From NCBI RefSeq assembly GCF_000003815.2, contig NC_049997.1, positions 6,225,204 through 6,289,203 of the forward strand: a DNA stretch of 64,000 nt, read 5' to 3'. The position numbers and the translations under genes were made by a program. How positions within the stretch are numbered: the first letter of the stretch is position 1; each line of letters starts with the position of its first letter. The DNA is from Branchiostoma floridae. Its lineage: Eukaryota; Chordata; Leptocardii; Amphioxiformes; Branchiostomatidae. Of this stretch, positions 1,088 to 34,500 are shown one piece after another. The notes under the pieces were generated by a model, which was given only the letters and a program-made list of their open reading frames with translations, was not told the DNA's origin and searched no databases.

Positions 1088-4000
1088 AGCCTCAGGCCAG
1101 GACACCGGGGAACCCTAAGGTGCTCCAGACGGGTACCAGGAAGCCGCACCCGTCTTACGTACCTGAACACCTGCCTGCCTTCCCCGACCCGCACACCTAC
1201 ATCAGAACACCTGTAAGTACGTCTGAACAGCTTTCCTGACCCTCACACTATCAGAACACCTGTAAGTACCTAAATACCTACATCAGAACATCTGTAAGTA
1301 CCTGAACACCTGCCTGCCTTCCCCGAACCACACACCTACATCAGAACACCTGTAAGTATGTCTGAACAGCTTTCCTGACCCTCACACTATCAGAACACCT
1401 GTAAGTACCTAAATACCTACATCAGAACATCTGTAAGTACCTGAGCACCTGCCTGCCTTCCCCGAACCACACACCTACATCAGAACACCTGTAAGTTTTG
1501 GATTGATGTCATGGTTATTGGGTTGGCCAACTACTCTCTCTTTGCAGTCAGGGGTTGAATTGTGAGGGGCTTATAATTAAATTGTACATGTATACGCGAT
1601 ACTTAGTGAGTGATCTCAGAGAGTGACAGCCATTGGAGTATTAACTTAATAATTAAGTAATAAATCACTGGCACCGTGAAGGACCCCATTTCTTTTCAAA
1701 TAAGTGTGATGGATTCTTTAAAAAAGTGATGCTCCAGCTGTGGCTCTTCTCGAACACTGCTACCTGAGGGATGTCTTTAATAACAAAGCTAGATACCCAT
1801 TTTTACCTGAGTTAAGTGAGGAAAGTCATGTAACACACAATGCCAAGTAGCATCCAAATATAACATTTTACTTTTGGTAATGCATTGTACACAATACTTC
1901 ATGTATTGTTTGTTACTTGTGTTATTTATACCTTCCTTACCACATGTTAGTTTGAGACTTTTTAAACGTTGCCGTACATTTGTATATTCTTTTTTTTTCA
2001 GACCTTCCGGCCTCCAGCGAGTGATTATCAGGTGATTAGAGAAACGGCAGCGTCCCAGAGAAGAGACATCGAGCGGGCGCTGACCAGGTTCATCGCTAAA
2101 ACTGGCGATACTCAGAGCCTCTTTAAAGATGACAAGAACTCCTTCCCACGTCAGTATCTTTTTATGTGTGTGTCTTTGTGTGTGTATATGTATGTGTGTG
2201 TGTGGTGTGTGTATTTGTGTGTGTGTGTGTTTGTGTCCGTGAGTTTTTGTGTGTGTGTATGTGGTGTGTGCATGTGTGTGTGTCTTTGTGTGTGTATATG
2301 TATGTGTGTGTGTGGTGTGTGTATTTGTGTGTGTGTGTTTGCATGCATATTATCACCTGCTTTGTACATGTCATCCCTAGCCTGCTGGGTGCAGACTTGG
2401 ACCACATTGTTTTGTTTGTTGTTGTTTCCATAGTGATAGCACCTGCCCACCCTGTATACATGCAGTCCCTCCTGGGTGCAGACATGGACCATATTGTTTA
2501 TTGTTTGTTTGTTTGTTTGTTTCCTGTTACCATAGTGATAGCACCAGGCCCCCTGTCCGCCCCATACATGCAGTCCCTGCTGGGTGCAGACATGGACCAT
2601 ATTGTTTATTGTTTGTTTGTTGTTGTTGTTACCATAGTGATAGCACCGCACCCCCTGCCCGCCCCGTATATGCAGTCCCTCCTGGGTGCAGACATGGACC
2701 ATATTGTTTATTGTTTGTTTGTTTGTTTGTTTCCTGTTACCATAGTGATAGCACCAGGCCCCCTGTCCGCCCCATACATGCAGTCCCTCCTGGGTGCAGA
2801 CATGGATCATATTGTTTATTGTTTGTTTGTTTGTTTCCTGTTTCCATAGTGATAGCTCCGCACCCCCTGCCCGCCCCGTACATGTTATCCCTGTTTGGTG
2901 CAGACATGGACCATATTGTTTATTGTTTGTTGTTGTTACCATAGTGATAGCACCACGCCCCCTGCCCGCCCCGTACATGTTATCCCTGTTTGGTGCAGAC
3001 ATGGACCATATTGTTTATTATTTGTTTGTTGTTCCCATGGTGATAGCACCGCACCCCCTGCCCGCCCCATACATGCAGTCCCTCCTGGGTGCAGACATGG
3101 ACCATATTGTTTATTGTTTGTTTGTTTCCTGTTCCCATGGTGATAGCACCACGCCCTCTCCCCGCCCCGTACATGCAGTCCCTCCTTGGTGCAGACACGG
3201 ACCTTATTGTTTGTTTGTTTATTGTTTCCATAGTGATAGCACCACGCCCCCTGCCCGCCCCATACATGCAGTCCCTGCTGGGTGCAGACATGGACCATAT
3301 TGTTTATTGTTTGTTTGTTTGTTGTTGTTTCCATAGTGATAGCACCACGCCGCCTGCCCGCCCCGTACATGCTATCCCTACTGGGTGCAGACATGGACCT
3401 TATTGTTTGTTAGTTTGTTTGTTTGCTGTTTCCATAGTGATAGCACCATCACCACTGCCCGCCCCGTACATGCTGTCCCTGCTGGGTGCAGACAAGGACC
3501 ATATTGTTTATTGTTTGTTTGTTTGCTGTTTCCATAGTGATAGCACCATCACCACTGCCCGCCCCATACATGCAGTCCCTGCTGGGTGCAGACATGGACC
3601 TTATTGTTTGTTTGTTTATTGTTTCCATAGTGATAGCACCACGCCCCCTGCCCGCCCCATACATGCTATCCCTACTGGGTGCAGACATGGACCTTATTGT
3701 TTGTTAGTTTGTTTGTTTGCTGTTTCCATAGTGATAGCACCATCACCACTGCCCGCCCCGTACATGCTGTCCCTGCTGGGTGCAGACAAGGACCATATTG
3801 TTTATTGTTTGTTTGTTTGCTGTTTCCATAGTGATAGCACCATCACCACTGCCCGCCCCATACGTGCAGTCCCTGCTAGGTGCAGACATGGATCATAGTG
3901 TTTATTGTTTGGTTGTTTGTTTGTTGTTACCATAGTGATAGCACCATCACCACTGCCCGCCCCATACGTGCAGTCCCTCCTGGGTGCAGACATGGACATT

Positions 4001-5344
4001 ACAGACGAGACGAGTGATGAGGAAGCCATGGACACAACCAGCACCTCCCAACACCAGGTATGGCTGCACTTCCATACTGTAAACCTTGTAAAGATAAGGA
4101 AAAAATAATGTTGTGTTTCCCGCTTCAGTCCTGGAAAAATTAGGGTTGGTAGGTCATGTAGGGATTATCTTTTAATCTTGTATTTTTTTTTAGGCTGGCC
4201 AAAACTCCAATGTGACATATTACTGTAAAATACAGTTGAACAAAGTAAACTGAAATGCATGAGGACACTTGTCTTTCAATGTCAAACTTTAAATTTGTGC
4301 ATAATAGATAGGACAAGCTGTGTTGTTACCTCTAGTCAATAGAAAGCAGGCTGAATACAAATTCTAAGTGAAAGTACTGCCCACCCAAAAAAAGGCTAGG
4401 GTCACAAGGTATTTCTAGTGTAGGTAGGACAACGGGTAACAACATATTTCCTCCCAACACCAGGCTTGGTGGCTGTGTTGTGTGTAGGTATATATTGCAC
4501 ATGTAGTGCTGAATAGCTGTATTTGTACATAGCAATGTTTGACACGTCTATTAGCCCGGGTAAGTGAAAATGCCAATCGGGCAAGCGCATGTCCTACCCC
4601 ACTTGCCCTATCAGAAAATCAGCACTATTTTGATTTGTTAACCTCTCAAAAGCGTGGGTTCCTTGCATAAAATATCTGAAATAACTAAATAACTGACAGT
4701 GTTTATTCATCTTTCTGTCATCATTGAAGACAACAGGTTATAATTACTTTGTCTAATTAAGCAAAGTGGCATTGCAGTACTAATTGCAAAAAAAGGAGTT
4801 TGCTTCGTCTCAAGTAAAACACTTTGAGTTCTGACTGCTTTACCTTTTTTGCTAACATCAGGGCTCAAAATACTTTTTTCTGCATTACCTGCACCAGACA
4901 AATTTTACCTGCACCACTCTGAATTTACTAAAATTATTCAGGAACCATTGCTATTTTTTTCTTTTATACTTTATAGGTGGTAACAGTCAATGCAGCTAAT
5001 AACAATCCACATACACATATATCATAGGACCTTTATGTATAAAACCCAGTACATGGATCAGTACAGGTTAGGTATAGGTCGACACCAACTTTACCTTCAC
5101 TAGCCTGCATATGCAGGACACCAGGTGGTATTTCATTGAAACTTTGTGTATGTTTCAGACCGCTCCCTCCCAGACAGCAGGGACCAGGGAAAGTAAAGAC
5201 ACTCTAGGGGAGGGGAGGGGACAAGACTCCTCACAAGATTTGTCTCAAGACCAGAGGAACCGAGATTCCGACTCCATCATCGATAATCCGTTCTTACAGC
5301 CGGCGAGGAAACCACCGTTCCGCAGAAAACTTTCAGCAAAGTAA
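1088..5344 (+). CDS. TAF8: TAF8, TFIID subunit 8 (C-terminal half, 5' partial)
   Basis: Four coding exons are visible: 1088-1212 (entered in phase 1), 2002-2149, 3936-4057 and 5159-5344, ending in TAA. All junctions are AG/GT and the frame is continuous, giving about 192 residues. In order, the product has a proline-rich stretch with FPDPHTYIRTP, then SDYQVIRETAASQRRD and AKTGDTQSLFKDD, then LIAP-PLPAPY-QSLLGADMD, an acidic DETSDEEAMD patch, and a C-terminus with IIDNPFLQP followed by a basic RKPPFRRK tail. These are the conserved TAF8 C-terminal region and its nuclear-localisation-like end. TAF8 pairs with TAF10 through an N-terminal histone fold and bridges TAF2 within TFIID; the histone-fold exons must lie left of the window. 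Both the first exon's donor and the third exon's acceptor are amplified as minisatellites. The identification is strong; exon edges are inferred. Confidence 0.93.
1195..1496 (+). repeat. exon-edge minisatellite copying the TAF8 exon 3' end and splice donor
   Basis: A 139-bp unit is present about 2.3 times. Each unit reproduces the end of the exon 1088-1212 (acctacatcagaacacct) followed by gtaagt. The gtaagt donor motif occurs seven times, at 1213, 1262, 1294, 1352, 1401, 1433 and 1491, spaced exactly 139 bp between equivalent sites. The first is the authentic donor by reading frame. Two larger units also repeat the coding phrase cctgcctgccttccccga. Confidence 0.88.
2160..2345 (+). repeat. (TG)n microsatellite
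   Basis: Imperfect TG repeat with internal tatatgtatg and cgtgag interruptions. It starts 11 bases past the donor of TAF8 exon 2002-2149. It leads directly into the acceptor-derived minisatellite. Confidence 0.9.
2363..3935 (+). repeat. exon-edge minisatellite copying the TAF8 acceptor and exon 5' half
   Basis: About 15 units of roughly 90-105 bp, preceded by a degenerate partial unit at 2363-2433, lead into the real exon at 3936. Each unit is a TTTG-rich tract, ccatag (the acceptor), then about 65 nt matching the first half of the coding exon (LIAP-PLPAPYMQSLLGADMD), ending at catggacc. Only the last copy continues into the acidic part and the donor at 4058, so it is the functional exon. 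The units near 3040 and 3148 read ccatgg, so their acceptor AG is destroyed. Unit length varies with the number of TTTG steps. Confidence 0.92.
4058..5158 (+). other. last TAF8 intron with two MITE fragments
   Basis: No gene is seen. Around 4545-4625 is a fragment of the gggcaagtg/cacttgccc family whose fuller copy is at 8692-9009. At about 4859 a cagggctcaaaatac end resembles the hAT-like element at 13360. The remainder is AT-rich unique sequence. Confidence 0.5.
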
Positions 5345-5660
5345 CGTTAACACGCAATATATAAAATTCTTCTGCAGAAAACTTTCAGCGAAGAAACGTT
5401 AAGACAGTCACATAAAATTTCTGTGAAAAACAGGTATTTTTTCCCTCAATTCAATGGTCATATTTTGTTTTCTATCTGTAAATATCTGTTTATAGCAGTA
5501 ATGTAATGCTCATATAAAGACGAGGGAGGTGACTATATTTTTTTCTCAATTTGAGGTCAAATTAATATTTTTGGGGCTGAATATGTAGTTAGAGTGTTTT
5601 TATTTGGCAAAGTATTTGGGCTCCATTTTGCAGAAAACTCTCAGTTAAGTACGAAGTAAC
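5323..5660 (+). repeat. degenerate direct repeats of the TAF8 terminal coding tail
   Basis: The last coding bases, cgcagaaaactttcagcaaagtaacgtt in part, recur just past the stop as gcagaaaactttcagcg-aag (about 5373-5395) and again as gcagaaaactctcagttaag near 5631. The first exon copy contains the real TAA. The rest is presumably 3' untranslated sequence, with no clear AATAAA nearby. Confidence 0.55.
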
Positions 5661-5710
5661 ACACAGGACAAGAGAAATATTTTGTGAACATTTATTACTA
5701 TGTAAATTCA

Positions 5711-6131
5711 AAACCACACCAATTTGATTTCTTTGCTGTCAGATCTTTAAAAAATAATTGGCCATCAACATGACAATACAGTCTGGGGGTAGTCTGTGTC
5801 TTAGTTCACACAGTTTCAGGGAGTCAGATGTAACGCTAGTTCACCTTTATCTGTGGCGTAAACCTTTATCCGTTGTCTTTATAAACAGCACAATTAGGAG
5901 TGTTAAGTCCGCTGACAGTGGTTTCAAATTTGCAATATTTTCAAAGTGTTCCGATTTTAAACCACCGTCTGTGGACTTTATATCCCTTTTTTTGTACAAA
6001 CAACGAATATAGGTTACCCTCGGATAAAGGTGAACCAGCGTTAAGTTTCCTCCCAGCCCTCTGTTTTCATGATGTCTGGTTGGTAGAATTTCACATAAAA
6101 GAAAACCAACCATTTAAATTGGTGTGGCTTT
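5711..6131. mobile_element. MITE with aaaccacaccaattt ends, hosting a nested MITE
   Basis: The left end aaaccacaccaattt and right end aaattggtgtggctt are inverted repeats with one mismatch. A second, different element (5831-6043) lies inside it. The end sequence resembles the larger element at 6511-6875. Confidence 0.55.
5831..6043. mobile_element. TAACGCTAGTTCACC-family foldback MITE, copy 1
   Basis: The left end is taacgctagttcaccttta and the right end is its inverted counterpart, aaaggtgaaccagcgtta. The interior is itself partly self-complementary, with tttcaaa and ttaaacc arms. Three other copies occur at 16330-16553, 17109-17330 and 54032-54252. Confidence 0.75.
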
Positions 6132-6510
6132 AGGGTGGTTTTCTTTTAGAATACAGTGAGATTTGCATTTGTTTGTAAAATATTTTCTGAAAATGTTACT
6201 TTTCATCGTTGTATTGCTAGTTGTGGAAACGACTGAAAAATATTGTATTTTTTCTACCATACAAGACTGGTATATACACTGTGTGAGATAGATATAAATA
6301 CATATCTTTTCCAATGTAAAACATGTCATTAATACATTTTTACAAGTACGACTTTATCATCATGAGAAGTGCATACAAAAGTATCACAAACACACATATT
6401 TTCCAAAGTTGTTAAACTATGATTCATACATGTGATACAACATTACGCAAAGTGCATTAAACTTTGTTCCTAAACTTAAGCTTCAGTTTGCCAGGTTTGC
6501 ATTGATTCCT

Positions 6511-6875
6511 AAGGCCACACCAATTTAATTTCTTGGTTCACGGATTTTTTCATAAAAAATATGGAGCGAAAGGGCGAAATAAAAATAAAAATTGTAAAAT
6601 GGTTGGGGTAAAGGTAACGGCTAATCCAAAACATAAAGAAAAAAAGTTTTCAGCTTGAAAAAAGTACAGAAACACTATTTTTGTACAGTAACAGCAACTG
6701 TACCCACACTTTAAGGAGCTTATAATATAAAGGCCAATTTGCTACACCAGAAAGTTGGTGAATGGTTTCATTAATGGTAAAAATTTGCTGAGTGGTAATT
6801 TTTATTTTTATTTTTTTTTCCAAAAAATGGGAGCGAGCGAATCCGTGAACCAAGAAATTAAATCGGTGTGGCCTA
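6511..6875. mobile_element. MITE with 35-bp terminal inverted repeats
   Basis: The left arm begins aggccacaccaatttaattt and the right arm ends with the inverse, aaattaaatcggtgtggcct. The match extends about 35 bp with few mismatches, through ttggttcacgga/tccgtgaaccaa. No coding content is recognised. Confidence 0.75.
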
Positions 6876-7156
6876 ACGTCACATTTCCAAACTGGGGCCA
6901 GGACGGGCTGTTTGTGGAAACAAAAAATAGAAACGTATGCGTAGAAATATACACAAATAATGCCAACGGCTATTCTCTTTAGGTCTTTAGTAGATTGGTC
7001 TTTTTACACTTTTCTTTTCCAAAAGCTGCTCGGCCGACCCTGGTGTGGAAATTTAATCTCCAAGCAGATCCTGCGGTGCCATAAGATAGTATCAAAGCTG
7101 GCCAAGGAGTGTAGCCGGCTAAGGGAGTCAAACGGGCACCGGAGAAGTTTGATACA

Positions 7157-7256
7157 TATAGAATACAACAGTGTATTCCGTCTCACCCGAGGTACCAGCC
7201 CGACCGCGGGTCGGATCGCCCGACGGCCGATGCGTAATACACCGTGTTGTATTTTA
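7157..7256. repeat. short inverted-repeat element (gaatacaacacggtgtattc type)
   Basis: It starts agaatacaacagtgtattc and ends gtaatacaccgtgttgtatt, with a GC-rich middle that is itself palindromic (ccgaccgcgggtcgg). Relatives occur at 55838-55990 and, as one end only, at 47383. Confidence 0.55.
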
Positions 7257-7896
7257 TTTATGTCAAACCCGTTTTGATGCGAAAAGCGCCAGAAGTTGAA
7301 CAAATTTGGTGCCCTCGAACAAAAAGTGTTGCAACAGTAAGTGAAACTTCCAACGTCTAAATCAGGTATTCGAACTCTCGATGGCACCGCACTCGGCCTG
7401 CTCGAAACAGTTTGATTTATTCAAATGGAGCCCGTGTGATACGCCTTTTGAACCTGTGCGATACGGAAGTTATGGCACGGTCCGGAACACCTGTATCGAA
7501 CGTTTTCGCATCACAGGTATGACATAAAGTAGATTATTATGCAACAGTAATTAAAACAAACTGTGCATTCTGATTCAATACACATCCTTATTGCAATGTA
7601 CTCCAGAGGATTTCTTGTATGATCATAATAAAATCAAAGCTAATATTCCTTTTGTATTTCAGTCTTTTCTTTGACAAAATATAGTCATCCTTCAGTGTAT
7701 TATAATTCATTTTTTCTGTACACTATACATACAACAGTGCTTGTAAAAATTCAAAATCTTTTTCAAAACATTTGTATAAAACTGTGAAATCTGCAGGGAA
7801 GAGCAAGTATCTAAAATTTCTCTTGTTCATAAAGCCTGCCACAGCTGATTGCTGCATCGAATTGTTTAATACACTCTTACAACAGCCAAAAAGGGC

Positions 7897-8062
7897 TGTC
7901 AAGGTGGAAAATATACCTTTCTGGAATATACATAATCTTTTTTTTTTTACAATTTTCGTCCTCTTTTAGAGTATTGCAAAAAGGTGGAAAATATACCTTT
8001 CTGGAATATACATAATCTTTTTTTTTACAATTTTTGTCCTCTTTTAGAGTATTGCAAAAGGG
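7897..8062. repeat. tandem duplication of a 79-bp unit
   Basis: The block from aaggtggaaaatatacctt to agagtattgcaaa appears twice in succession. The two copies differ only in T-run length and one base. The function is unknown. The surrounding 7260-8280 holds no recognisable gene. Confidence 0.8.
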
Positions 8063-8288
8063 CTCCATGTACATCAGGTGATCCCTAAAAGCCAGGCAGT
8101 GATCGTGGACTGTTAGTGGAGTCCAAAAAGGTATTTTAGAACTCAGACATGCAGGGTCGAGATATTTTCCTGTGATGCTGCCTTTTTGTAGCCTGGGTAC
8201 CGTCTGGGTAGAAGTTTGCTCCCATGTTTGCTTCTGCTACCCGTCTGGGGAACTGCACATTCAAACCTTTTGGTGTTGACGTCAGTTA

Positions 8289-8422
8289 ATGAGCAAATTA
8301 AGGAACGGGTTCTAGAGCGCTTGTGTGATGACAACAGGCCCTCTCGCAAGTGGAAGGAGGGCATTTCAGGTGTTGGAACACCTGTTAGAATAAGCGCTTG
8401 AACCCATTCCTTAATTTGCTCG
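8289..8422. repeat. foldback element with 30-bp arms
   Basis: The left arm tgagcaaattaaggaacggg (continuing ttctagagcgctt) pairs with the right arm aagcgcttgaacccattcct (continuing taatttgctcg). It is probably a small MITE. No coding content. Confidence 0.65.
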
Positions 8423-8691
8423 TGTATGGGGACCAATCAGCACTCTCGTCCAAAATTTGGAAGATTCCAGACAATTAATAGAGATGTCAAGGTTCCCAGG
8501 CAGACAATAGCAATAAAGAAGCGACTGTATATAGTTCATAATAAACGTTGGAGCCAACTGCTATACGGATGGTACTAAGCAATTATAGTACAACGCATAA
8601 CCTTAGCTGGTCTAGGTTACTCCTTCTCTGAGTCTTCTTCTTTGTCAACTGGTTCTGCGCTGTACAACATGGCATAGGGGTAACCTGAAGG

Positions 8692-9009
8692 CAGGGTTCG
8701 ACAAGTCCACTAGTCCGATTGTCCCGGGCAAGTGAAAATGCTGTTGGGGCAAGTGCATGTCCAACCCTACTTGCCCAATTTTTCCATGGGTGAGATTTTG
8801 ATACACTGTAACTTTTCATAGTCATGGTGTCAAGCGTTGGTAAACACAGAAAAGAAGTCAATGATAAAACAATTCCATTTTGGAAGTGAAAATACACAGA
8901 AGAAATGTCATTTGAATTCCGGGCAAGTGAAAAGTTGGTTCGGGCAAGTGGATTTTTTGTGTACTTGCCCGATAGGACAAGTGAAATTTTGAAAACTTGT
9001 CCAACCCTG
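8692..9009. mobile_element. hAT-like MITE (CAGGGTTCGACAAGT ends)
   Basis: The left end cagggttcgacaagt and right end acttgtccaaccctg are inverted repeats. The interior contains several gggcaagtg and cttgccc words in both orientations. It ends 30 bp below the stop codon of the dioxygenase gene, so the 3' untranslated region of that gene probably contains it. A precise target duplication could not be shown. Confidence 0.6.
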
Positions 9010-9038
9010 GAAGATACCAGAAGATGAAGAGGAGGAAG

Positions 9039-9501
9039 TCAATCTTTCTCCTCCTCCTCCTCCTCCTGGACCGGTTCAGCACCATACATCACGTCCGTCC
9101 TCATGGCGTACTTCACTCCGGCCGTCACCTCCTCGCCCTCGTGGTAAATGTCGTGTTGGAACACCAGGACGCGACCTGGAAGTAGACAATCAATTTCATG
9201 AAATTGGTAAAAGTAGTCTCAAAGCCTTTCTGAGGCTGTAAGCTAGGGCAGTGTCTAGGGTACAATATTGGGAGGTAGAGCCAATCCCTCCAATCCTTCC
9301 AATACCTCTTACACAAGATCAAACATGCGAATGCTCAATGTCATGGCCTCTATCCTAGCCACTCCGCCATTCATTGTTATTACAGCCAAACATGACCGGT
9401 CATAGACACATGAAAACAATAAGCACAGTCCTGTACTACTGTTGCACAAGAACCTGTCTATAATGGCCACCTGCCTCAATTCTCTTGCAAGGGTGTGTGT
9501 C

Positions 9502-9532
<31 letters not shown>

Positions 9533-12500
9533 TGTGTGTGTGTGTGTGTGTGTGTGTGTGTCAGTGTGTGTATGTGTGTGTATGCATTGTGTGTGTGAGT
9601 GAGAGAGAGAGAGAGAGAATGTTATCTTGCCTTAACAAATTTCCTTACCAGGTTTAGGAATGACAGGCACTTTCTCCTTGATCTTGTCCCCAGTGGCAAA
9701 CATGGGTGAGATGAAGTTTGTGGCACCTCCGGTACTGCCCTGCAAGAAAGGAGAGTACAAATTTATCAAGATTGCAATGTTGCAAGTAAACTTAATTTCA
9801 CGGTTCATGTCTTTTCTATGGGAACTCTCTGTATGTCTTTCATAGCATGAGTGTTTATCAATGGACAAGTAAGGTTTCAACCAACATTACATGAGTCCAT
9901 TGAGCATTTACTCATGCCACTCTAGATTATGGCTAAGTGGTGACCGCGTAGCGCAGTGGGACCGTGTTCGCCCCGTGACCGAGAGGTTGCGGGTTCGAAT
10001 CCGCCTACCGTGTTACCGATCTTGTGCCCTTGGGAAAGGCACTTTACACGACTTTCCTCACTTTACTCAGGTGAAAATGAGTACCTAGCTTCGGCTCACG
10101 GTGATTAACATCATTCACCCGGACGGGAGACCTGGTGCATATGAAAGGGTGTGTCATCCTGTAAGGGGCGGTATAACCCTGTCGTGCGCAAACATGTGCG
10201 AACATGTGCGATCACGTCGACCGATGATGTATGTTCGTCTGTATCTCTGTGGATCTGCCGCTACCAGCCCAAAGCTGCCTAGGTAGATCCGTGTAATGAG
10301 TTGTATCATTGGCAAATAAGTAAAATAAAATAAAATAAATAAGTAGCTATATGACTTAAGCATATAGTATTATACATATACATTACATATATTTGAAAAT
10401 ATGGAGACACACAAGAAAACAAAACATAACAACATGCCAAAAATAAAACCTCCATTTACATGTACCTTCTTTTGCAGACTTCTAGCAACACCTATTTTGC
10501 AGGAATGCTGACTTGTGATTTTTAACATGGACTCAGGTTCTCTGACGTTGGGACAGTTCTGCCCTTGCCAGAACTCCTTTCCCATCATTACAGATGCTTA
10601 GTCCATGTTGAAAATCACAAATCAGCACTGCTAGAAGTCTGCAATGCAGGCTACACTACATAGAAGTAAAACGTTACAGACTACAGACTAAAGTACTATA
10701 TGATAATTCTCTACTCACCTCGTTTAAGTACAGCATGAGCGTGAGGTAGCTCCTGTACTCAGAACTATACTCACCTCGTTTAAGTACAGCATGAGTGTGA
10801 GGTAGCTCCTGTACTCAGAACTGTACTCACCTCGTTTAAGTACAGCATGAGTGTGAGGTAGCTCCTGTACTCAGAACTGTACTCACCTCGTTTAAGTACA
10901 GCATGAGTGTGAGGTAGCTCCTGTACTCAGAACTGTACTCACCTCGTTTAAGTACAGCATGAGTGTGAGGTAGCTCCTGTACTCAGAACTGTACTCACCT
11001 CGTTTAAGTACAGCATGAGTGTGAGGTAGCTCCTGTACTCAGAACTGTACTCACCTCGTTTAAGTACAGCATGAGTGTGAGGTAGCTCCTGTACTCAGAA
11101 CTGTACTCACCTCGTTTAAGTACAGCATGAGTGTGAGGTAGCTCCTGTACTCAGAACTGTACTCACCTCGTTTAAGTACAGCATGAGTGTGAGGTAGCTC
11201 CGGTACTCAGAACTGTACTCACCTCGTTTAAGTACAGCATGAGTGTTAGGTAGCTCCTGTACTCAGAACTGTACTCACCTCGTTTAAGTACAGCATGAGT
11301 GTGAGGTAGCTCCTGTACTAAGGATAAGGGAGAAATTCTTTGTACACAACCAGTGGGTACTTACATAGCTTACGTTTCGATGTCTCTCAGACACCTTCGT
11401 CAGAGCTTCTAACTGGAGTTCTGCTTCTCACCGCTATATGTAGCCGATGTAGGTGGCGCTTTTGCGGTGAGAAAACAATCCCAAACGTGGCTTAGTTTGT
11501 ATCCCCCTTCGTCCCGGTTCATCACTGGGGTTGACTTTCTTATCCAGATGGCCTCCTTAATCCACCGTGCCCGCCTATTGTCTTCCCTGTCTATGACCTT
11601 CGCCCCCTCCCAGTCAATTACGCAATTGTTCCTGGCGATATGGTCTGTAACTGCCGACTTCTTTTCTTCTTTGAGCGCAAGTCTTTTCTGTGATCTTGTG
11701 TATCTTGTGGCATCTATGTTGTTGGCTTCTTTCTTGTGTTCTTCTAACCTCGTCCCAAAAGTCCTTCCTGTTTCACCAATATACACCTGATCACAGCTCT
11801 GGCACGGGATTCTGTACACACAGTCTGTTTTGGCTAAGTCCTCCTGTTTGTCCTTAGGATGCACTAACAGACTTCTCAGTGTTGTTTTGGGTTTGACTGC
11901 AGTGGCTATCCCGTGTTTCCGAAATACCCTTTCCAAAGGTTCCGTGACTCCTTTGACGTAAGGGATGATCACCATACCTTTCGACTTTTCCTGTTGTTTA
12001 GTGCTCAGTTCTTTCTGTTTAGGTCTCTTCTTCTGTTGTTCCACTTTGTTGAAGGCCCATTGAGGGTAGCCACAGCGTGTGAGGGCTCTCTTGACATGTT
12101 GTGTTTCCTGTTCTTTGTCCTGGTCTTCAGTGGTGACGGTGTTGCATCGGTCCAACAGGGTACGGATTACTCCTAACTTTTGGTGCAGAGGGTGGTGGGA
12201 CTGGAAGTTAAGGTATTGGTCTGTGTGCGTACTCTTCCTGTACACCAAAAGTTTCACTGTGCCATCCTCCTTATGCACTAGAAGGGTGTCAAGGAAAGGT
12301 AGTGTGCCTTCCTTCTCCTCTTCATACGTAAACTGTATGTTGCCGGTGGGGTCGATGCTGTTAAGGTGGTCTGTGAGCTCTTGCTGGGCTCCTGTACTAA
12401 GGTCAGACAGTATACTCACCTCGTTTAAGTACAGCATGAGTGTGAGGTAGCTCCTGTACTCAGAACTGTACTCACCTCGTTTAAGTACAGCATGAGTGTG

Positions 12501-15500
12501 AGGTAGCTCCTGTACTCAGAACTGTACTCACCTCGTTTAAGTACAGCATGAGCGTGAGGTAGCTCCTGTACTCAGAAATGTACTCACCTCGTTTAAGTAC
12601 AGCATGAGCGTGAGGTAGCTCCTTTCCCCGTTTTCCCGGCGGTAACTCCCGTCCATGTGTGGATGGAAGTAGTTACCTGGACCGTACTTCAGAAATCTCA
12701 GTCTGTGTGACACAAAACACATGATTGTAATAAAACTATGTGTCTTATATCTTAAAAATATATCAATACCACTTCTCTTTTCATATGCCCAAGGAGCTTT
12801 TATGAGAAGGAAAGAGAACAAAATCATTTATGATAAAAGCTCCTTGATGTGCCTGAAAATAGGTTGCAACTTTTTTCAAGGCCAAGATTTTTTAAATTTT
12901 GATACAGTTTGGGCAAAAATGGTCAAATAATAGATTAGATGGAGGAAAAACAAAAGAGAAAGTAGAGGACAATATTTGCAATGCAGTGCATACAACACAT
13001 GTATGCATGTAATATTACATGGCTTAACAACAGAATAGAGCAAATAGAAAGTTATACATGTACATACTTTCAACAAGAGGCTTTTCAACACTGACTGATT
13101 CTGATCTGAATTTATTTTATCAATTACATGAAAACAAAAAGCTTTACCTCTCGTTGAGCCCCAGCACCTTCCTCCTGGCCCATCTACGAGGCACGTACTG
13201 TTTGATTCTCTCCCAGATCTGCTCTGCTCTCTCCGTGGAGTCCATGATGCATCGCTCACTGTTCCTATAGTCTGTGGCCAGGATCTGTCTACAAGGGGAA
13301 AATGTGAGATAATTTTCAGAAGCAAGGAAAAGTAGCTTTCAAAAAATACATTCTGTATTCAGGGCCCAAAATACTTTTTTCAGCCAGGTTGTCCATGTGG
13401 CAACCTGAGTCAAAAGCCGGGGCTGAGGTTGCGCCATCAGCATTTCAGGTTGCCCCACTTTCAAATTGTTACTTTCTTCAAATCAGCTACTTATCCATTA
13501 TCTTTTCTTCCAGCTATATGTAACTAATTGTACTATGTTTTATGTTATCAAAAAAATGGATACAAAAGCTTATGCATGTTAAGGTGGGGAAAAAGCTGCG
13601 AGTGTTCCAACAGCAAAATTTCAGGTTGCTCAGTGTGCAATCTGGGTTTAAAATCAAGTTGCGCAAAGCAAAATGTGGTTGCATTTTCAAGTGGGCAAGT
13701 GGGTATTTCGAGCCCTAGTACTGTATATTTCTAAAAGGCTATTCATCCATCTATTCATTTCATTGTTATTTGTACAAATTAACCCTAGGCGGAGTCAAGA
13801 TGACGTGTGGACCTGCTCTTGCCTTGGGCTTAAACTGCTAAATGTTGGTGGAAAGTCAATGAATAACTTTAATACAGTTAACAAATGACAAAGTTTAAAA
13901 AAAAATGAGAAAATGTTTTCTCTGTTTTGAGGTTTGAAGAGACTGTCTATTGTTGGGGCGAAAAATCACTGTCTCCAAGTGTCTTAAGTATCAGGTACAT
14001 GTGACAAACTCCAAGAGCTAAAGGAAGCTTGCAGGATGCAGAAAAAAGGTGAAGAAAGACTGAATGCAGCTATAGGACTTTCCAAAGACTATCACAGGAC
14101 TTTCAAACTTGTCACATATGTAGCTGAGAAAGAGAATGCCCAATCCATATTGATTATGCAAATGATGACCTCATTTACATAATCAATGAGTAAACATGAA
14201 CTTGTTGACAGATTATGATTTTTGGTATGAAGATAGCCTAAGTGAAGACTTACATAGTGGGATGCTTATTATGCAAATCAACAGCAAATTTACATAATTA
14301 ATGAGGAAAGTTTACAAATCCAAGTGGCATTCCACGATAGGACTTTCAAAGTTGTCACCTATGTAACTGACAAAGGTAACTGAGAAAAGCAGCATAACTT
14401 TAAATTTTGACATCTCGTGTTCTGGACATGCTGTGGTCATGATTTTTGAGTGGTAGATAGCATTGAGGTCTTCTGATGAGAGAAGTGTCTTGAGCTCAGT
14501 CAAGTCAGTGAAAGGGGCTTCAAGTTCAAGATTAGAATACAGTGACTGATGATGATGGCACAAGTACCTTCCTCCTCCAACATTGAGCATGGCAACTTCA
14601 TATCCTTGGTCTTCTGTCTGCCGAATCAGCTCTTCACATTCCTGAAAAAAATACAAAAAAATCATCCTGGCTAAAAGTCTGGTTTCCAAGATAGATATTA
14701 ACTTACTCTCTAAGGTACTCTGATGACCTACACAGTGCCATTCTCCTATACAGAGGGACCACAGTCGTGTCAAAACGGCTTGTGTTACCTCTGCTTTCTT
14801 GTGCAATCAGACCAGTTAGGGAGCGCCCTACTTATAAATATTAATGAGCTTGCCCTTATATGGGCAGTCAGCCGTTGGGGATCGGGCGTAGGCATGGTGA
14901 GCAAACAAAGCCATGGTAATACGTAACATGATTGGCTGATAGCTTCCCAGGGGCCTTTGCGAGACAGCTTGCGACAACAACAAGCCCAAGAAAGCCCTAT
15001 TCTCTGATTGGTTGACAGCTTGTTTGTAGCGACAATCATAATAGCCACTAATAGGGCATGGGATAGCAGGGCCCCATAAGGTAATGCCGTTGGGGACCGG
15101 GTGTTAGGAGGATGCACAGTGCCAGCCCTTAAGACAGAGGCTGCTAGCTTAGCTGCCATCAAGCCTTTACATTTGAATACACAGTGAGTGTGTGAGTGTG
15201 AGAGTGAGAGAATTGATGAGTGAGTCAGGGTGAATGAGTGAGTGGGTGAATGAGTGAATGAGCAAGCAAGTAAGTGCATGCGTGAGTAGTGAGTGAGTGA
15301 GTAATTATATATAACGTTGTGTATAAAATATTGTATGTATTCTTCATAGAAAGACTGGAGAGTGTACAGAGGCGAGGAACCAAGTTTATCCTCAACAATT
15401 ACCAAACTTACTACACGTACAAAGACAGGCTGCTCAGTTGCTCACTTTTACCCTTGTCATATAGACGTGAAATTTTAGATTTAGTTTTCATTTTCAAATG

Positions 15501-16739
15501 TTTCTTAGGATATTACGAAATAGATGTCAACAATTACTTAACTTTCCCACATCCTCTCCTTAGATCACATGATCAGGCCAAGTTAACCCCAGGCAAATGT
15601 AATACTACTACCTTTAAGTACTCATTTTTTCTTAGAATTGCTCACATTTGGAATTCTCTCCCTACAGAAATAAGACAACTCAGGCTAATCCCAGACTCAT
15701 CAATTAGGCGCTTTAAGCAAGACATTTCAGGCCATTATCTATCCCTTTTGTCAACACACTTCGACGCTCATAAAACTTGCACATGGACCACTTGTTGAAA
15801 ATGCTGTCTGACATAGTTAACTCGACATGTTTCTTCAATACCATTACTTTATATCTCTAAGACTTTCACTTACAGTTTGGTTGTATCAATTCCTCTTTGT
15901 TTTTACTGCTATTCAGATAATTTCTTAGAATGTTTTGTCAATTATGTGAATGTATTAAGTATTAGTTATGTGCTCTTATTTGTCACACATGTATTTTTGT
16001 TTTTTAAATGTACCCTGGAGGTGGCGGCCCTGAAAAGGATATGCTAATCCTGTTGCCGTCACCTTTCAGATTCCTTCTGAAAAAGCTTAATAAATAAAAA
16101 ATAGCTTTGTTATTCAGTATAAGTTAGACATCCAGGTCATATAAGAATAACGCCAAAAGCTGTTACTAAAGCAACTGGATATGATTTGGGAAATGGTCAG
16201 ACGTTTCATACAACACCCAAATGTCTTCTGTCAGTGATATCATATCGGTGTCACTTAATGAAAGACATTATAATAGGGGGGTTGTCTGAAACGTCTGACC
16301 ATTTCCAATATCTTACCCAGTTGCTTGTGTAACGCTGGTTCATCTTTATCTGGGGGTAACCTATATTCGTTGTCTGTAAGTAAAAATGTATTTAGGGATA
16401 TTAAGTCGATGGACGGTGGTTTCAAATAGGAACATTTTGAAAATATTGCAAATTTGAAACCACTGTCAGCAGACTTAATATTCCTAAGTAAAAGTGCTGT
16501 TTTTAAAGACAACGGATAAAGGTCACCCCACGGATAAAGGTGAACGAGCATTAACTGCTTTTTGGCATTTGCAATCCAGTGTTCCTCACCTTTTTTGAGA
16601 AGACGTTATCGACGATGAAGGCCAGTTTGTCGTTCTGGAAGTCCCCCGGGAGGTTGATGTCCTTGCGCTGACCGTGCAGCTGTACATCCACCTCCGACAG
16701 GGTCCGCAGGTCTGCCGGGGATCCACTGGTGTTCCCCAT
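9039..16739 (-). CDS. 2-oxoglutarate/Fe(II)-dependent dioxygenase, prolyl-4-hydroxylase-like
   Basis: Six coding exons in transcription order: 16739-16590, 14641-14568, 13288-13148, 12702-12588, 9739-9649 and 9175-9039. All have AG/GT borders and consistent phases, giving 235 residues. The Fe-binding pair is H137-x-D139 in FHPHMDG; the distal histidine is H202 in IYHEG and the 2OG-binding lysine is K212, ten residues on, the spacing of collagen-type P4H domains. Other family words are NSERCIMDS, LRFLKYGPGNYF and YLTLMLYLNE. The enzyme should use O2 and 2-oxoglutarate to hydroxylate a substrate I cannot name. No signal peptide or membrane segment is obvious. The start chosen is ATG at 16739; the frame is open upstream to an ATG at 16808, so a longer N-terminus or a non-coding first exon near 18 kb is possible. 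The exon-4 donor is amplified into a minisatellite carrying a retroelement. The C-terminus ends in six glutamates encoded by a GAG repeat. Confidence 0.9.
9490..9620 (+). repeat. (TG)n/(GA)n microsatellite
   Basis: Long TG tract followed by a short GA tract. It lies in the last intron of the dioxygenase gene, about 30 bp from the donor of exon 9739-9649. Confidence 0.9.
9941..10344 (+). mobile_element. tRNA-derived SINE
   Basis: The 5' end looks like a tRNA. It has an A-box-like gtagcgcagtggg and a B-box ggttcgaatccgc about 45 bp later, followed by a tRNA-unrelated body (cttgggaaaggcactttacac) and an A-rich aaaataaaataaaataaat tail. A second copy lies on the minus strand at about 19950-20383. 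It is intronic to the dioxygenase gene. Confidence 0.85.
11324..12387 (-). mobile_element. 5'-truncated Penelope-like retroelement inserted in the minisatellite
   Basis: The minus-strand insert is flanked by a 15-bp direct repeat, gctcctgtactaagg, at 11309-11323 and 12388-12402, which is the target duplication. It interrupts the 56-bp array. It encodes the end of a Penelope-type protein and carries a hammerhead-like fold at its 3' end. A related 3' fragment is at 28738-28898. Confidence 0.9.
11348..11420 (-). ncRNA. hammerhead ribozyme-like motif of the Penelope-like element
   Basis: On the minus strand the order is ctgacga, a stem ggtgtct-gag-agacatc, then gaaa, then a short stem III acgta-agc-tatgt, then A, giving a GTA cleavage triplet. 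Flanking ccagt and actgg can form the outer part of stem I. This matches the CUGANGA / stem II / GAAA / stem III hammerhead order. Penelope-like elements are known to carry hammerhead motifs. Activity is untested. Confidence 0.7.
11409..12402 (-). pseudogene. Penelope-like element ORF remnant: RT end plus GIY-YIG endonuclease
   Basis: About 330 residues remain, lacking the catalytic reverse-transcriptase core. The N-terminal part (LPFLDTLLVHKEDGTV, STHTDQYLNFQSHHP) matches the end of Penelope-type reverse transcriptases. After a Lys/Gln-rich linker comes the GIY-YIG nuclease domain with CVYRIPCQSCDQVYIGETGR and a following RLEEHKK helix. The frame stays open into the flanking minisatellite, so the longest reading frame starts with MLYLNE, a piece of host exon 4 translated through its donor. 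That fusion is a chance of insertion unless transcripts show otherwise. The element is truncated at its 5' end and should be immobile. Confidence 0.88.
13360..13717. mobile_element. hAT-like MITE (CAGGGCCCAAAATAC ... TTTCGAGCCCTAG)
   Basis: The ends cagggcccaaaatac and gtatttcgagccctag are imperfect inverted repeats like those of the elements at 27-881 and 62438-62796. The interior is rich in caggttgc words. Flanks share ctgtat on each side without an exact 8-bp duplication. Intron 3 of the dioxygenase gene. Confidence 0.5.
13985..14345. repeat. dispersed A/T-rich repeat with tttacataatcaatga words
   Basis: The phrase tatgcaaatca-cagcaaatttacataattaatgag recurs here twice in related form. 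It also resembles 26040-26185 upstream of ninjurin B. No ends or coding content could be defined. Confidence 0.4.
15180..15310 (+). repeat. (GAGT)n-type microsatellite
   Basis: Degenerate tgagtgag and gaatgagtga repeats. They are followed within 40 bp by a LINE remnant. Confidence 0.8.
15346..16103 (+). mobile_element. 5'-truncated non-LTR retrotransposon (LINE), 3' end
   Basis: An open frame of about 150 residues shows the end of a LINE reverse transcriptase: ERLESVQRRGTKFIL, DRLLSCSLLPLSYRR, then WNSLPTEIRQL and FKQDISGHY. The WNSLP word and trailing FK helix are standard in CR1/L2-like elements. An untranslated tail follows and ends aataaataaaaaa. It lies in intron 1 of the dioxygenase gene, in antisense orientation, and is dead because of its 5' truncation. 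Confidence 0.85.
16169..16323. repeat. foldback element with long arms
   Basis: The left arm gcaactggatatg...ggaaatggtcagacgtttc pairs with the right arm gaaacgtctgaccatttcc...atatcttacccagttgc. The loop is about 80 bp. It abuts the next MITE copy directly. Confidence 0.7.
16330..16553. mobile_element. TAACGCTAGTTCACC-family foldback MITE, copy 2
   Basis: Ends taacgctggttcatcttta and aaaggtgaacgagcatta. It lies in intron 1 of the dioxygenase gene, only 36 bp from the donor of exon 16739-16590. Confidence 0.75.
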
Positions 16740-16819
16740 CCGGTCTGCAGGGTTGGAGCTAGTCATGTAAGAGTTAAAGTTAAATAAGGTTAAAGTTTGC
16801 CCATACATCTAAGATGCGT

Positions 16820-17062
16820 AGGGTGGCGCCCATCTCCACTTTGAAGCCCTTGGGCCACACATGTGCAAGCCACTACAGCAGGGGGCTGGTCCGCTGGTAG
16901 TGATGTGTGTTTAACTTCCATACTCTTCCTCATTAGTGCTGAGTGTTAAGCAGAGAAAGCAGCATGTACCATTATTAGAGTCTTTTATGACTCGGCCGGG
17001 GTTCAAACTCACGACCTACCGAATGCAAGGCAAACACTCTACCCACTCGGCCATTGTACCAG
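16820..17062 (-). mobile_element. tRNA-derived SINE, second family
   Basis: On the minus strand the unit starts tggccgagtgggtagagtg (A-box-like). The B-box-like gtgagtttgaacccc follows about 30 bp later. A body containing agcactaatgaggaagag follows. A similar body is found at about 30520-30720. Confidence 0.7.
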
Positions 17063-17108
17063 TCAATGTACTGTCATCAGTCATGGAAGAGCAACAGGTG
17101 AAAATGAG

Positions 17109-17330
17109 TAACGCTAGTTCACCTTTATCCGATGGGTAACCTTTATCCGTTGTATACACATTTGTAGTATTCATGGTTATTTATAAGTCGACAGACAGCT
17201 GTTTCAGACTGGAGTGCTATGAAAAAAATGTAATTTGAAACCAACGTCCGTCGACTAGATATTCCCAATTACATAACTTTTAAAAACAACGGATATAGGT
17301 TACCATGTGGACAAAGGTGAACTACCGTTA
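17109..17330. mobile_element. TAACGCTAGTTCACC-family foldback MITE, copy 3
   Basis: Ends taacgctagttcaccttta and caaaggtgaactaccgtta. The interior pairs on itself. It lies between the dioxygenase gene and ninjurin A, which are divergently transcribed. Confidence 0.75.
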
Positions 17331-17394
17331 CTTAGATTTAGTTATATAACTTAATAGGGGCTGTCCCTTGGATAAGATGTTAAATAAGATGTTG

Positions 17395-17610
17395 ATGGGT
17401 CGTTCGGTGTAATATAACGAGCTGCTCCCGCGCCGCGTGCCTGGGAAGCTGGTGTGTTACGCTGAACGGCATTTATACCGGCCATATATAGACACAGAAA
17501 CGGAGGTCCCGTGTTTGGTGACAGAACCCATTAACGCGTTAAAGATTCTACCCATCACACCTTTTGTAATGGGGGCATGCCCTGGTGTGCGATGGTGCAA
17601 ACCTTACAGC
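17395..17610. repeat. SINE-like dispersed repeat fragment
   Basis: It carries gcgccgcgtgcctgggaagctggtgtgttacgc-type sequence, which reappears at about 62170-62240. It also has ggaggtcccgtgtttgg and gtgcgatggtgc words, which reappear inside the SINE at 19950-20383. Ends not defined. From here to about 18120 nothing else is recognisable. Confidence 0.5.
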
Positions 17611-18119
17611 TTTTAATCTAGGCATGTACATGTACAAGTCTTCAGCATATTGAAGTTGGTAGCCTCAAAAGAAAGAATAAGAAGCTTTTAATTAATAACA
17701 ACACTTGGAAGGCCAGACCAATTAAATTAGTTACCTCTCAGATTTTTTGCAGAAAAAAAAATACACCATTATTAAGAATGTCACTATGTCAGGGAAATAC
17801 AGTCATTCACATCGCATACTTTTCTCTACCCCTTACATCTGCTTGAAGATCAAACTGAAAGGAAAGTCACACATAGATAAATGCAATTGCACTTTTCTAA
17901 CAGACTCACTTACGTTCTAGATCTCTTGACAAAAGGCGACCAACAAGTCCGTAAAAATGCGACTGTGCAGGGACAGGGCTCAGTCCGACTATTGCCGACT
18001 GTTTGAAGACATCATGATCATTATATTTCAATCTCTTTCCTGTCTCTCTCCTTCCTGAAAATCTTAGTACTGACATTCGCAGCAAGCTCGGCTGCTTTTA
18101 TAGTGGTCCCCTATTCTCG

Positions 18120-18530
18120 GACCATGAAGTCATCGCTAAAACAGACAAGTATAAACAACACTCAGCACTTACCGCGAACTTCCCGTCATGTATTCAGTCG
18201 TCATCGTGAAAACGCCTTCTGTACCACGTCGCCACTCAGATGACTCAGAGCTCCAAAATAAACCTAATACTCTAAAATTATTCCACCTTTAAGTCGATTC
18301 CATGGTATCTCTGTAAGCTATAGATGGGAGAGCAAAGCTTGTGACTTGGTGCAAGTAGGACTTTTGCTCGTTTTGAAGCGTAAAGCAGTTTCAGATGATG
18401 CTTTTGTCTCTACTTCAAGCTTGTTGCTACTTCCGCGTAAACAGGTGTTTGACCTCTGACCTAGAGGATGCTGTGCAACAGCGCTACTAATTCACAGCGG
18501 AATGGCCGTGAAACGCAGTAAAAGTTTTTC
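18120..18530. repeat. segment duplicated at 23790-24245
   Basis: Shared words in the same order include ccaaaataaacctaat, cctt-a-gtcgattc-atg, aacaggtgtttgacctct-acct and gctgtgcaacagcgc, with the equivalent block upstream of ninjurin B. It lies in the gap between the divergent dioxygenase and ninjurin A genes, so it probably belongs to the duplicated upstream region of the ninjurin unit. Confidence 0.6.
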
Positions 18531-18924
18531 GTTGTGAGTACTATAATTTATATGTCGTATAATGTCGTATACCTGTCAACCGACAAGAGGGATAATGGAT
18601 GACTACCGGCAGACTAGCAGCGTGACACAAATTCTCAAACTCAAAGGCCTGCAGTGGCTCCCTCTCTCTGAAAGAAGAAGGAACGTTTCCCTGCCAATCC
18701 ATATGTAGAAGTAGATGTTGACATTTCGCCTATAAGATCCGCTTACAAAAGCTATTGTCCGGAGTTTGATATGATAAAAATATATTTGAAAATACTTCGC
18801 TTGTGCGGGTGTTTTTGCTTCGAACTTACCTCTGAATGGGGAAATAAAAGACAAGAAAATCGTATTTCGGTATTTTCCAACCTTCCTTCAAAAAACCTGT
18901 TTGTAAGTTTATCTATATGATCTG

Positions 18925-19163
18925 GGATCATAGGGCCCTGGCTACGAAAGTGTGGTCAGACGAGTTACTACTTGTCGGACAAGTTACTGTCCACAAAAGG
19001 TGGGTTCCCCCATGGGAACATTTATCTCGTGCATCGAAGGGACGGGGAACTGAAAGCAAAGGGCGTCGCTTGTGTTTGTCTTCGACAGCTTGGAGAATTC
19101 CCGATCAAGAAGCCGCTAGCGTCTTTAGAAAGTGAAACGACACCACAACTGTGACTTGTCGAG
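18925..19163 (+). promoter_or_regulatory. 5' leader of ninjurin A, shared with ninjurin B
   Basis: The block before the start codon is recognisably paralogous to 28260-28551 before ninjurin B. Shared words include gtggtc-gac-agt, gggaactgaaa-caaa, cgtcgcttgt and aaagtg-ga-gacaccaca. This suggests a common untranslated leader and possibly promoter. No TATA box is claimed. Confidence 0.5.
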
Positions 19164-31500: not shown

Positions 31501-34500
31501 TGCTGTAATTGGAATGCGCAAACATTTTGAGAGCCAATGAGAATGTCACAGGACTTCAAGAGTCCGGTGGGGTTTCCTGTTGAATTTGTTTATGAACCGG
31601 GAGTGTTTATTTGCGTGGTTGTGCTCAGTCAGTTTGCCTGTGTGGTTGTAGCCAGCCTGAAATCATTTTCAGCCCCCTCGATTTTGAATGGAAATCCTAT
31701 CGAGCACCGAAGGCATGGTGTGACGTTGCGCGTCATTTCTAGGGGATCTGAGTCCCAGAAAATTTTGAAACCTAGACTCTCTGAAACACTATTTCCTGCA
31801 TTTTGAGGTGCAAATTTGGCTTGTAGACTAAGCTGTTCAATGGCATCTGTTTTGGTGAAGAAGAACACATGGGTTTCATTTTTTTTATATCTTTATTTTT
31901 TTTTATATCTTTACATATCAGTTTTTGTCTGTCCCTGGGGACGGAATGGGGAAAACTTTTTTTTCAGTCCCCAGCGGCAAAATTCCTTCAAAGGACTGAA
32001 GGACAGGTGCTGGCTACAACCCTACATACACCATTTATGCACGGGTGACCATTGCGTTTGCGGACCACAAAGATATTGCCATGTCGATTTGATCATGTGG
32101 CTGACATCCGCGAGCATCAATTTCATCCGTTTCCAAAAGAAAAACTTTGCCCACACTGTAAATCGTAGAAAGCAGCTGTAAATGAGTACATGTAAGCCTT
32201 AATTTGAAAACACACACTCTCACACCAACACACACAACAAAAACACACACGCGCACACATACACACAAATGTACACATACACAAACACATAGACACACAT
32301 GCAGACAGAGACACACACACACACACACACTCACACATACAAATGTACATACAAACAAACAAACTCACGAACTGATCACAATGACTCCATTCCAAAGAGT
32401 GCGTGAAAAAATTAACGTTGTGCATTGCTTCCTTAACTACAGCTTGTACAACAAGTGCAAATACAAGGGAAGTCCAAGTTCGTGTTCTTCAAGAGAATGC
32501 CGGCCGGCCCGCCCAAAGTCCGACCCCCTCTGGGGATGAACGCTTACGCCCAGAAGAAAACCATGGCGCAAGGCTTCATGGACATGGCGCTTCTCACGGC
32601 GAACGCTGCTCAGATGAAACTCGTCATGGTCGAGGTAAGATTGTGCTGAAGCGTTCCTGTGTGTGCCAGAGAGAGAGAATGAGAGGAAGAGAGAGAGAGA
32701 GAGGGAAAGAAAGTTTGTGTGTGTGCGAGAGAGAGAGAGAGAGATAGGAACAGAGAGAGAGAGAAAATGAGGGAGAGAGAGTGAGAATGAGCGTTTGTGC
32801 ATGTGTCAGTTGGTGAGTTTGTTTGTATGTGTATGTGTGTGTGTGTTTATGTTTCTGTGAGTGTGTGTGTTTGTGTGTGTGTGTGTGTGTGTCTCTCTCT
32901 CTCTCTCTCTCTCTGTCTGCGTGTGTGTGTGTGCATCTCTGTGTGTGTGTGTTTGCCCTCAAATGTGTGTGTGTGTGCTGGGGTGTATGTGGGTGAGACC
33001 GCCTGAACAAAACCGTGTCACCTTAACTCATCACGTATCCATGTTTTCACCTTGCTGTAGGGTCACGACGGGCGGATCCCATTCTTTGACTTCATCATGG
33101 CGCTGCTGGGACTGTCCATCGCTTTCCAGATCGTGGTCGGCGCGCTCCTACTGTACAAGAGTCAGTACAACATCGAACAGCACAACGAACAGCACAGGGC
33201 CGACAGGTAGGTACAACAATGCGCTGTTACTGTACAAGTTTCAGTACAACAACGAACAGCACAACGAACAGCACAGGGCCGACAGGTAGGTACAGCAATG
33301 CGCTTTTACTGCACAGGTTTCAGTACAACATCGAACAGCACAACGTACAGCACAGGGCCGACATGTAGGTGGACAAATGTTGCGCTGTTACTGTACAAGT
33401 CTCAGTACAACATCGAACAGCACAACGAACAGCACAAGGCAGACAGGTAGGTACATCAATGCACTTTTACTATGCAAGTCTTAGTACAACATAGAACAGC
33501 ATGCCGAACAACACAGGGCCGACAGCAATGCGCCCTTACTGCATAGGGCCGACAGTTAGGTACAGCAATGCGCTGTTACGGTACACGTATCAATACAACA
33601 TAGAACAGCACAACGAACAGCACAGGGCCGATAGGTAGGTACAGCAATGCGCTGTTACTGTACAAGTTTCAGTACAACATAGAACAGCACAACGAACAGC
33701 ACAGGGCCGACAGGTAGGTACAGCAATGCGCTTTTACTATGCAAGTCTCAGTTCAATATAGACCAGCATGCCGAACAACACAGGGCCGACAGCAATGCGC
33801 CCTTACTGCACAGGGTCGACAGGTGGGTACAGCAATGCGCTGTTACTGTACAAGTCTCAGTACAACATCGAACAACACAACGAACAACACAAGGCGGACA
33901 GGTGGGTATAACAATGCGCTTTTACTATGCAAGTCTCAGTACAACATCGAACAGCACAACGAACAGCACAGGGCCGACAGGTAGCTACAGCATTGCGCTC
34001 CTACTGTACAAGTTACAGTACATCATCGAACAGCACAACGAACAGCACAGGGCCGACAGGTAGGTACAGCAATGCGCTGTTACGGTACACGTATCAGTTG
34101 AGTACAACATCGAACAGCACAACGAACAACACAGGGCCGACAGGTAGCTACAGCATTGCGCTCCTACTGTACAAGTCTCAGTACAACATCGAACAGCACA
34201 ACGAACAACACAAGGCGGACAGGTGGGTATAGCAATGCGCTGTTACTGTACAGGTCTCAGTACAACATCGAACAGCACAACGAACAGCACAGGGCCGATA
34301 GGTAGGTACAGCAACTAGTGCGCTGTTACTGTACAGGTCTCAGTACAACATCGAACTGTTGTGGAGAAATGTTTCTAAATCTGTTGGATAGACTATTTTG
34401 TTTGGTTTTATTCCCCATTTCTTCAAACAAGCCTATGTGGTTGACCACTTATGGGGCTAATTCTTCTTGCCCTTTTCATCCTGACGAACGATCAGTTCAC

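Follow-up and report, generated by a model that had tools for sequence, protein, structure and literature searches.

The stretch of Branchiostoma floridae DNA analyzed here (contig NC_049997.1; 64 kb, hereafter the window) raises the question of why tandem repeats should come to lie on exon-intron borders, and from where their copies are drawn. Four minisatellites detected in the window, with periods of 139, 100, 56 and 79 bp, each span a splice junction of a protein-coding gene. Arrays 1 and 2 cover a donor (1212, + strand) and an acceptor (3936, +) of TAF8, array 3 covers a donor (12588, -) of a 2OG-Fe(II) oxygenase gene, and array 4 a donor (33206, +) of a ninjurin gene. The arrays themselves belong to a published class, the mirage minisatellites of amphioxus, and the one new result is a codon signature in their copies. 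On balance we favor the view that these are four new mirage loci, with copies that were seeded by the exon edge, or exchanged sequence with it, and that preserve some of its past states.

The arrays were detected with Tandem Repeats Finder (TRF) and the splice positions in them were located by sequence patterns (Table 1); the regular spacing of the splice sites suggests that few or none were missed by the pattern search. An original prediction, made by a model from the DNA letters, had placed the four arrays about where TRF finds them and with about these periods, and its division into three donor arrays and one acceptor array agrees with the junction map. It had also described each unit as crossing the junction and including a few bases of intron. 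The crossing was found in all four arrays, but the unit of the acceptor array includes about 38 nt of intron; in the donor arrays the intron portion of the unit ends about 6 to 22 nt beyond the junction. When the four true sites are counted, splice signals are kept at 49 of 52 positions (7/7, 14/16, 15/15 and 13/14 in arrays 1 to 4, respectively). Array 3 consists of two blocks, the smaller of which alone reaches the true junction. The insert between them, about 1.1 kb long, matches GIY-YIG weakly (E = 0.0012; score 19.5 bits, cut-off 22.6) and resembles a fragment of a Penelope-like retroelement. A 15-bp repeat, GCTCCTGTACTAAGG, was noticed by eye at both ends of this insert (11320-12412).

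Copies drifting freely in an intron should change without regard to the reading frame; the observed changes do not. When each distinct column variant was counted once over the four arrays and scored against the consensus codon, the exon-derived part of the copies showed 34 synonymous to 30 nonsynonymous variants (S:N), where 26% synonymous would be expected (P = 4.2e-6; ratio of nonsynonymous to synonymous change, dN/dS, about 0.31). The excess is also present without the exon copies (33:27, P = 2.1e-6) and without CpG columns (25:19, P = 6.9e-6), and no excess was seen in the same-strand frames shifted by +1 (9:54) or +2 (16:48). The count leaves out the array 2 copy at 2434, four of the seven array 1 segments and a 5-nt insertion in one array 4 copy, and it takes the last, partial copy of array 4 over 34 nt. 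Linked changes within one codon may score as nonsynonymous although the codon pair is synonymous, which works against a synonymous excess.

One serine codon of array 4 illustrates what the copies might hold. The exon reads AGT at this place, the 14 extra copies read TCT (8), TTT (3), TAT (2) and TTA (1), and three ninjurin paralogues have TCT, TCC and TCC. With TCT in the copies and TCN in the paralogues, the array 4 copies seem to preserve a codon that the exon has lost. In array 2, six of the 14 aligned extra copies encode Leu, as does B. lanceolatum, at a place where the present exon encodes Gln; this codon may likewise be a record of a past exon state, although with weaker support. The nearest extra copy of array 2 is the only one that shows no amino-acid difference from the exon.

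From these patterns we infer that an array is re-seeded from the exon or exchanges sequence with it, that it grows through unequal exchange and that splicing makes it tolerable. It would start as a short tandem duplication of an exon edge together with the splice site, and it would be tolerated because the exon-joined copy retains its own complete working splice site. The array would then expand in the intron through unequal exchange or slippage, and its copies would repeatedly be drawn from the exon edge or exchanged with it. Since selection holds the exon copy coding, copies descending from it or from other alleles would differ for the most part synonymously. Exon states that are older, or that belong to other alleles, would in this way be deposited in the intron, and the intron copies would record the synonymous history of the exon.

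Several observations weigh against a simple form of this proposal. The codon signal is carried mainly by arrays 2 (15:11, P = 0.0016) and 4 (15:18, P = 0.005), with 2:1 in array 1 and 2:0 in array 3, and the test was conceived after the data had been seen. In an earlier alignment one of the three reverse-strand frames was S-rich too (28:35, P = 0.001); this frame reads the same wobble positions as the coding frame, and the other two reverse frames gave no excess. The exon's AGT occurs in none of the 14 extra copies of array 4, so that this state was not seeded, and of the six sites of array 2 at which B. lanceolatum differs from the exon, only one shows the B. lanceolatum residue in extra copies. 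In array 4 similarity followed no visible trend, by eye, with distance from the exon, and neighboring copies of arrays 2 and 4 are no more alike than other pairs. Furthermore, if the copies were plain snapshots of the exon that drifted afterwards, variants present in a single copy only should look neutral; pooled, they are S-rich instead (14:12, P = 0.0025; array 2 by itself 5:2, array 4 by itself 6:9). Snapshots followed by drift would fit less well than ongoing exchange, or than selection acting on arrays from which the exon can receive a bad copy. More tentatively, the intron copies might stand in continuing exchange with the exon edge: they would bear a footprint of purifying selection though untranslated, earlier exon states would be stored in them, and the exon edge could be replaced when the array contracts, which would make it no fixed sequence but a member of a repeat family that is turning over.

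A footprint of this kind would also be expected if the extra copies were translated via alternative splicing and were under direct selection. The dN/dS of about 0.3 in the extra copies, which includes one-copy variants, and the splice sites retained at most copies speak for such translation, but a stop was met in every simple extension tested. Past the true donor, the frame stays open for 27 nt in array 1, 51 nt in array 3 and 4 nt in array 4, and in each the stop comes ahead of the first extra donor. In array 2 the frame entered at any of the 15 upstream acceptor positions (two of them without AG) is closed by a stop before the true exon ends. Translation of the intron copies as simple exon extensions is thus excluded; in addition, copy 33461 of array 4 contains an in-frame TAG. 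The joined exon models with the exon-proximal copy yield the expected proteins, with no insert, at all four arrays, which agrees with the earlier claim that the exon-contiguous copy is intact. A repeat-derived insert is absent from the annotated ninjurins of B. floridae, B. lanceolatum and B. belcheri, from B. lanceolatum TAF8 and from the oxygenase of a B. floridae x B. japonicum hybrid. All of these annotated proteins use the exon-proximal splice site; TAF8 and the oxygenase were judged on the B. lanceolatum and hybrid proteins, and B. floridae's own proteins are represented by ninjurin only (P0121, P0124). We therefore consider translation of the copies very improbable.

The arrays might alternatively be ordinary minisatellites whose seeds lie in GC-richer (guanine plus cytosine) exons and of which the edge ones alone survive selection, with neither targeting nor feedback from the exon. 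The base composition would suit this, as exons have a GC fraction of 0.54 (19 of 21 modeled exons being richer) against 0.42 for the window, and the arrays are intermediate (0.46-0.49). Such an origin, however, gives no reason to expect an excess of synonymous variants in the intron, and it seems unlikely to us.

Whether the exon borders themselves attract duplications depends on how the chance expectation is set. For this purpose 36 coding splice junctions were mapped in six genes of the window, namely TAF8, the 2OG-Fe(II) oxygenase (minus strand) and four ninjurins; annotated database proteins extend further N-terminally than our models, so that further exons exist outside this count. For the placement tests the TRF rows were merged by hand into 18 arrays with a period of at least 18. 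When each array was reduced to one unit and placed at random on a collapsed map, the expectation was 0.34 junction matches against 4 observed (P = 0.00028), whereas placement of the full-length arrays gives 1.88 expected against 4 observed (P = 0.088). Head-to-tail copies within 300 bp spanned 4 of the 36 junctions; of the 388 control points, which lay outside the four arrays, they spanned 14 (Fisher P = 0.057). A looser control pointed in the opposite direction, as it showed copies within 3 kb at 85 of 300 random points but at 4 of the 36 junctions; it counted microsatellites and array positions, for which reason the stricter 300-bp control was devised. We regard enrichment at junctions in the window as likely but not proven; it depends on the null chosen, with n = 4.

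A mutational process that aims duplications at exon-intron borders, linked to splicing or transcription or to breaks just past the 5' splice site, would account for the significant unit-collapsed test. Every array with a TRF score above 500 (n = 4, the blocks of array 3 merged) spans a junction, and the short reach of the donor-array units into the intron fits such a process as well, as do three more arrays that start 16, 22 and 17 nt downstream of donors (at 2165, 21209 and 44819). The original prediction had argued for a process of this kind, possibly coupled to transcription or splicing; for the border part of the claim, enrichment reaches significance with one null and is marginal or absent with the others, in four arrays from a single window. 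The transcription part finds no backing as far as tested, since the coding-strand GC skew (-0.47, -0.12, about 0.01 and -0.06) is not positive as an R-loop would favor. Moreover, the codon signature points to the exon as the source or exchange partner, so that no splicing-coupled process is needed. Targeting of the borders is accordingly, in our opinion, a rather unlikely explanation. Two further arrays, purely intronic and with related-looking GAATAGAAT units, lie at 21209-21393 and 44819-44904; they start 22 and 17 nt past matching donors of two ninjurin paralogues.

The four arrays have their place among systems already described. The Adh mirage is reportedly the subject of a 2002 paper by Canestro. 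Two later papers that cite this work bear out the Adh mirages named in the original prediction. They describe boundary-spanning tandem duplications in the amphioxus globins BflGb6 and BflGb9, with Adh3 and other loci cited there (PMC3087553), and a further mirage in amphioxus PGBD5 (PMC3902484). As the class has been published beyond Adh, the present arrays are four new loci of a known kind. Their units, like those of Adh3, BflGb6, BflGb9 and PGBD5, span an exon-intron border at donors or acceptors, and in all four arrays the unit combines an exon part, the junction and an intron part, as in the definition of a mirage. In published mirages, too, many but not all copies keep their splice signals and the gene models are unaffected. 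Homogenization of the inner units to the exclusion of the edge units, which characterizes the class, may have a counterpart in array 3, where ACG is confined to the last copy and the two nearest the exon and the other 12 have ACA; similarity between neighbors in arrays 2 and 4 gave no sign of it. Length differences between haplotypes and somatic instability are further features of the class. The present case differs from the published ones in having four mirages in three genes within 33 kb, an array split by a retroelement-like fragment, and a codon signature in the extra copies. No report of such a signature was found in the literature searched, and the word "synonymous" is absent from the main text of PMC3087553. 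Mirages are not mentioned in the portions available of papers on huntingtin and VCBP (PMC2206037; PMC2632668), though tandem repeats are.

Tandem duplication of sequence bearing splice signals is also known from intron gain, as in the potato RdRp gene and the AGGT repeats of fission yeast (PMC4974935). Unlike in those cases, no new intron was seen here. For the ninjurin array, creation of the intron by duplication is not the explanation, because three paralogues have an intron at the matching place without an array, so that the intron predates the array. Internal tandem repeats in human segmental duplications show minisatellite expansion at exon and intron edges (PMC2812944); about half of them alter the coding sequence and some make new introns, whereas the protein models here are unchanged. 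Tandem arrays are prone to assembly error, and the draft genome had one published mirage wrongly assembled (PMC3087553). In the present case, however, the copies differ from one another, array 3 contains a retroelement-like fragment and the exons beside the arrays are intact, which makes an assembly artefact extremely improbable.

The presence of four arrays at the 36 junctions mapped suggests that amphioxus may have many mirages; these would affect gene models, the comparison of alleles and our view of how introns grow. A codon signature that held across the genome would tell the direction of array turnover and provide a record of past exon alleles inside introns. Selection preserving the source copy might be a simple reason for the persistence of arrays at exon edges.

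Protein identity marks the window as B. floridae, and the genes that carry the arrays are cephalochordate, as judged from the ninjurin and TAF8 matches. The TAF8 model matches TFIID subunit 8 in PDB (E = 1.5e-44) and is 93% identical to TAF8 of B. lanceolatum. The oxygenase model is 98% identical to P0140 of the hybrid, which matches Pfam 2OG-FeII_Oxy_3, and the array-bearing ninjurin model (32443-41774) is 100% identical over 99% of its length to B. floridae P0121 (LOC118406553). The three genes are not strictly adjacent as had been claimed, because the oxygenase is separated from the array-bearing ninjurin by a further ninjurin gene (20990-22330).

Table 1. Arrays, insert and exons at the amplified splice junctions (positions within the window).
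Feature	Position	Strand	Evidence or remark
TAF8 exon, donor edge amplified	1088..1212	+	protein match, junction map
Array 1: exon 3' edge and donor	1159..1496	+	7 donors, spacing 49/32/58, higher-order unit 139 bp
TAF8 exon between arrays 1 and 2	2002..2149	+	protein match, junction map
Array 2: acceptor and exon 5' edge	2389..3997	+	16 acceptor positions, spacing 93-108 bp, 14 with AG
TAF8 exon, true acceptor copy	3936..4057	+	protein match, junction map
TAF8 last coding exon	5159..5341	+	junction map, B. lanceolatum match
Array 3, distal block	10712..11319	-	56-bp units, 11 donors
Insert within array 3	11320..12412	-	long open reading frame, weak GIY-YIG match
Array 3, exon-proximal block	12413..12623	-	4 donors, the true one among them
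2OG-Fe(II) oxygenase exon, true donor	12588..12702	-	junction map, hybrid protein match
Ninjurin exon, true donor	33061..33206	+	junction map, protein match
Array 4: exon 3' edge and donor	33142..34356	+	79-bp unit, 14 full copies (exon copy counted) and one partial

The annotated B. floridae isoform P0124 joins the first exons of the array-bearing ninjurin (33061-33206) to the last-exon sequence of the next ninjurin model (45945-46164), and to judge from this order it looks like the product of a read-through transcript. In the long ninjurin intron a direct repeat was noticed by eye, with its two parts about 1.75 kb apart (at about 34580 and 36323). Similar-looking stretches at 20260-20390 and 9930-10080 both contain the tRNA-like GATTCGAACC and are perhaps copies of a short interspersed element (SINE).

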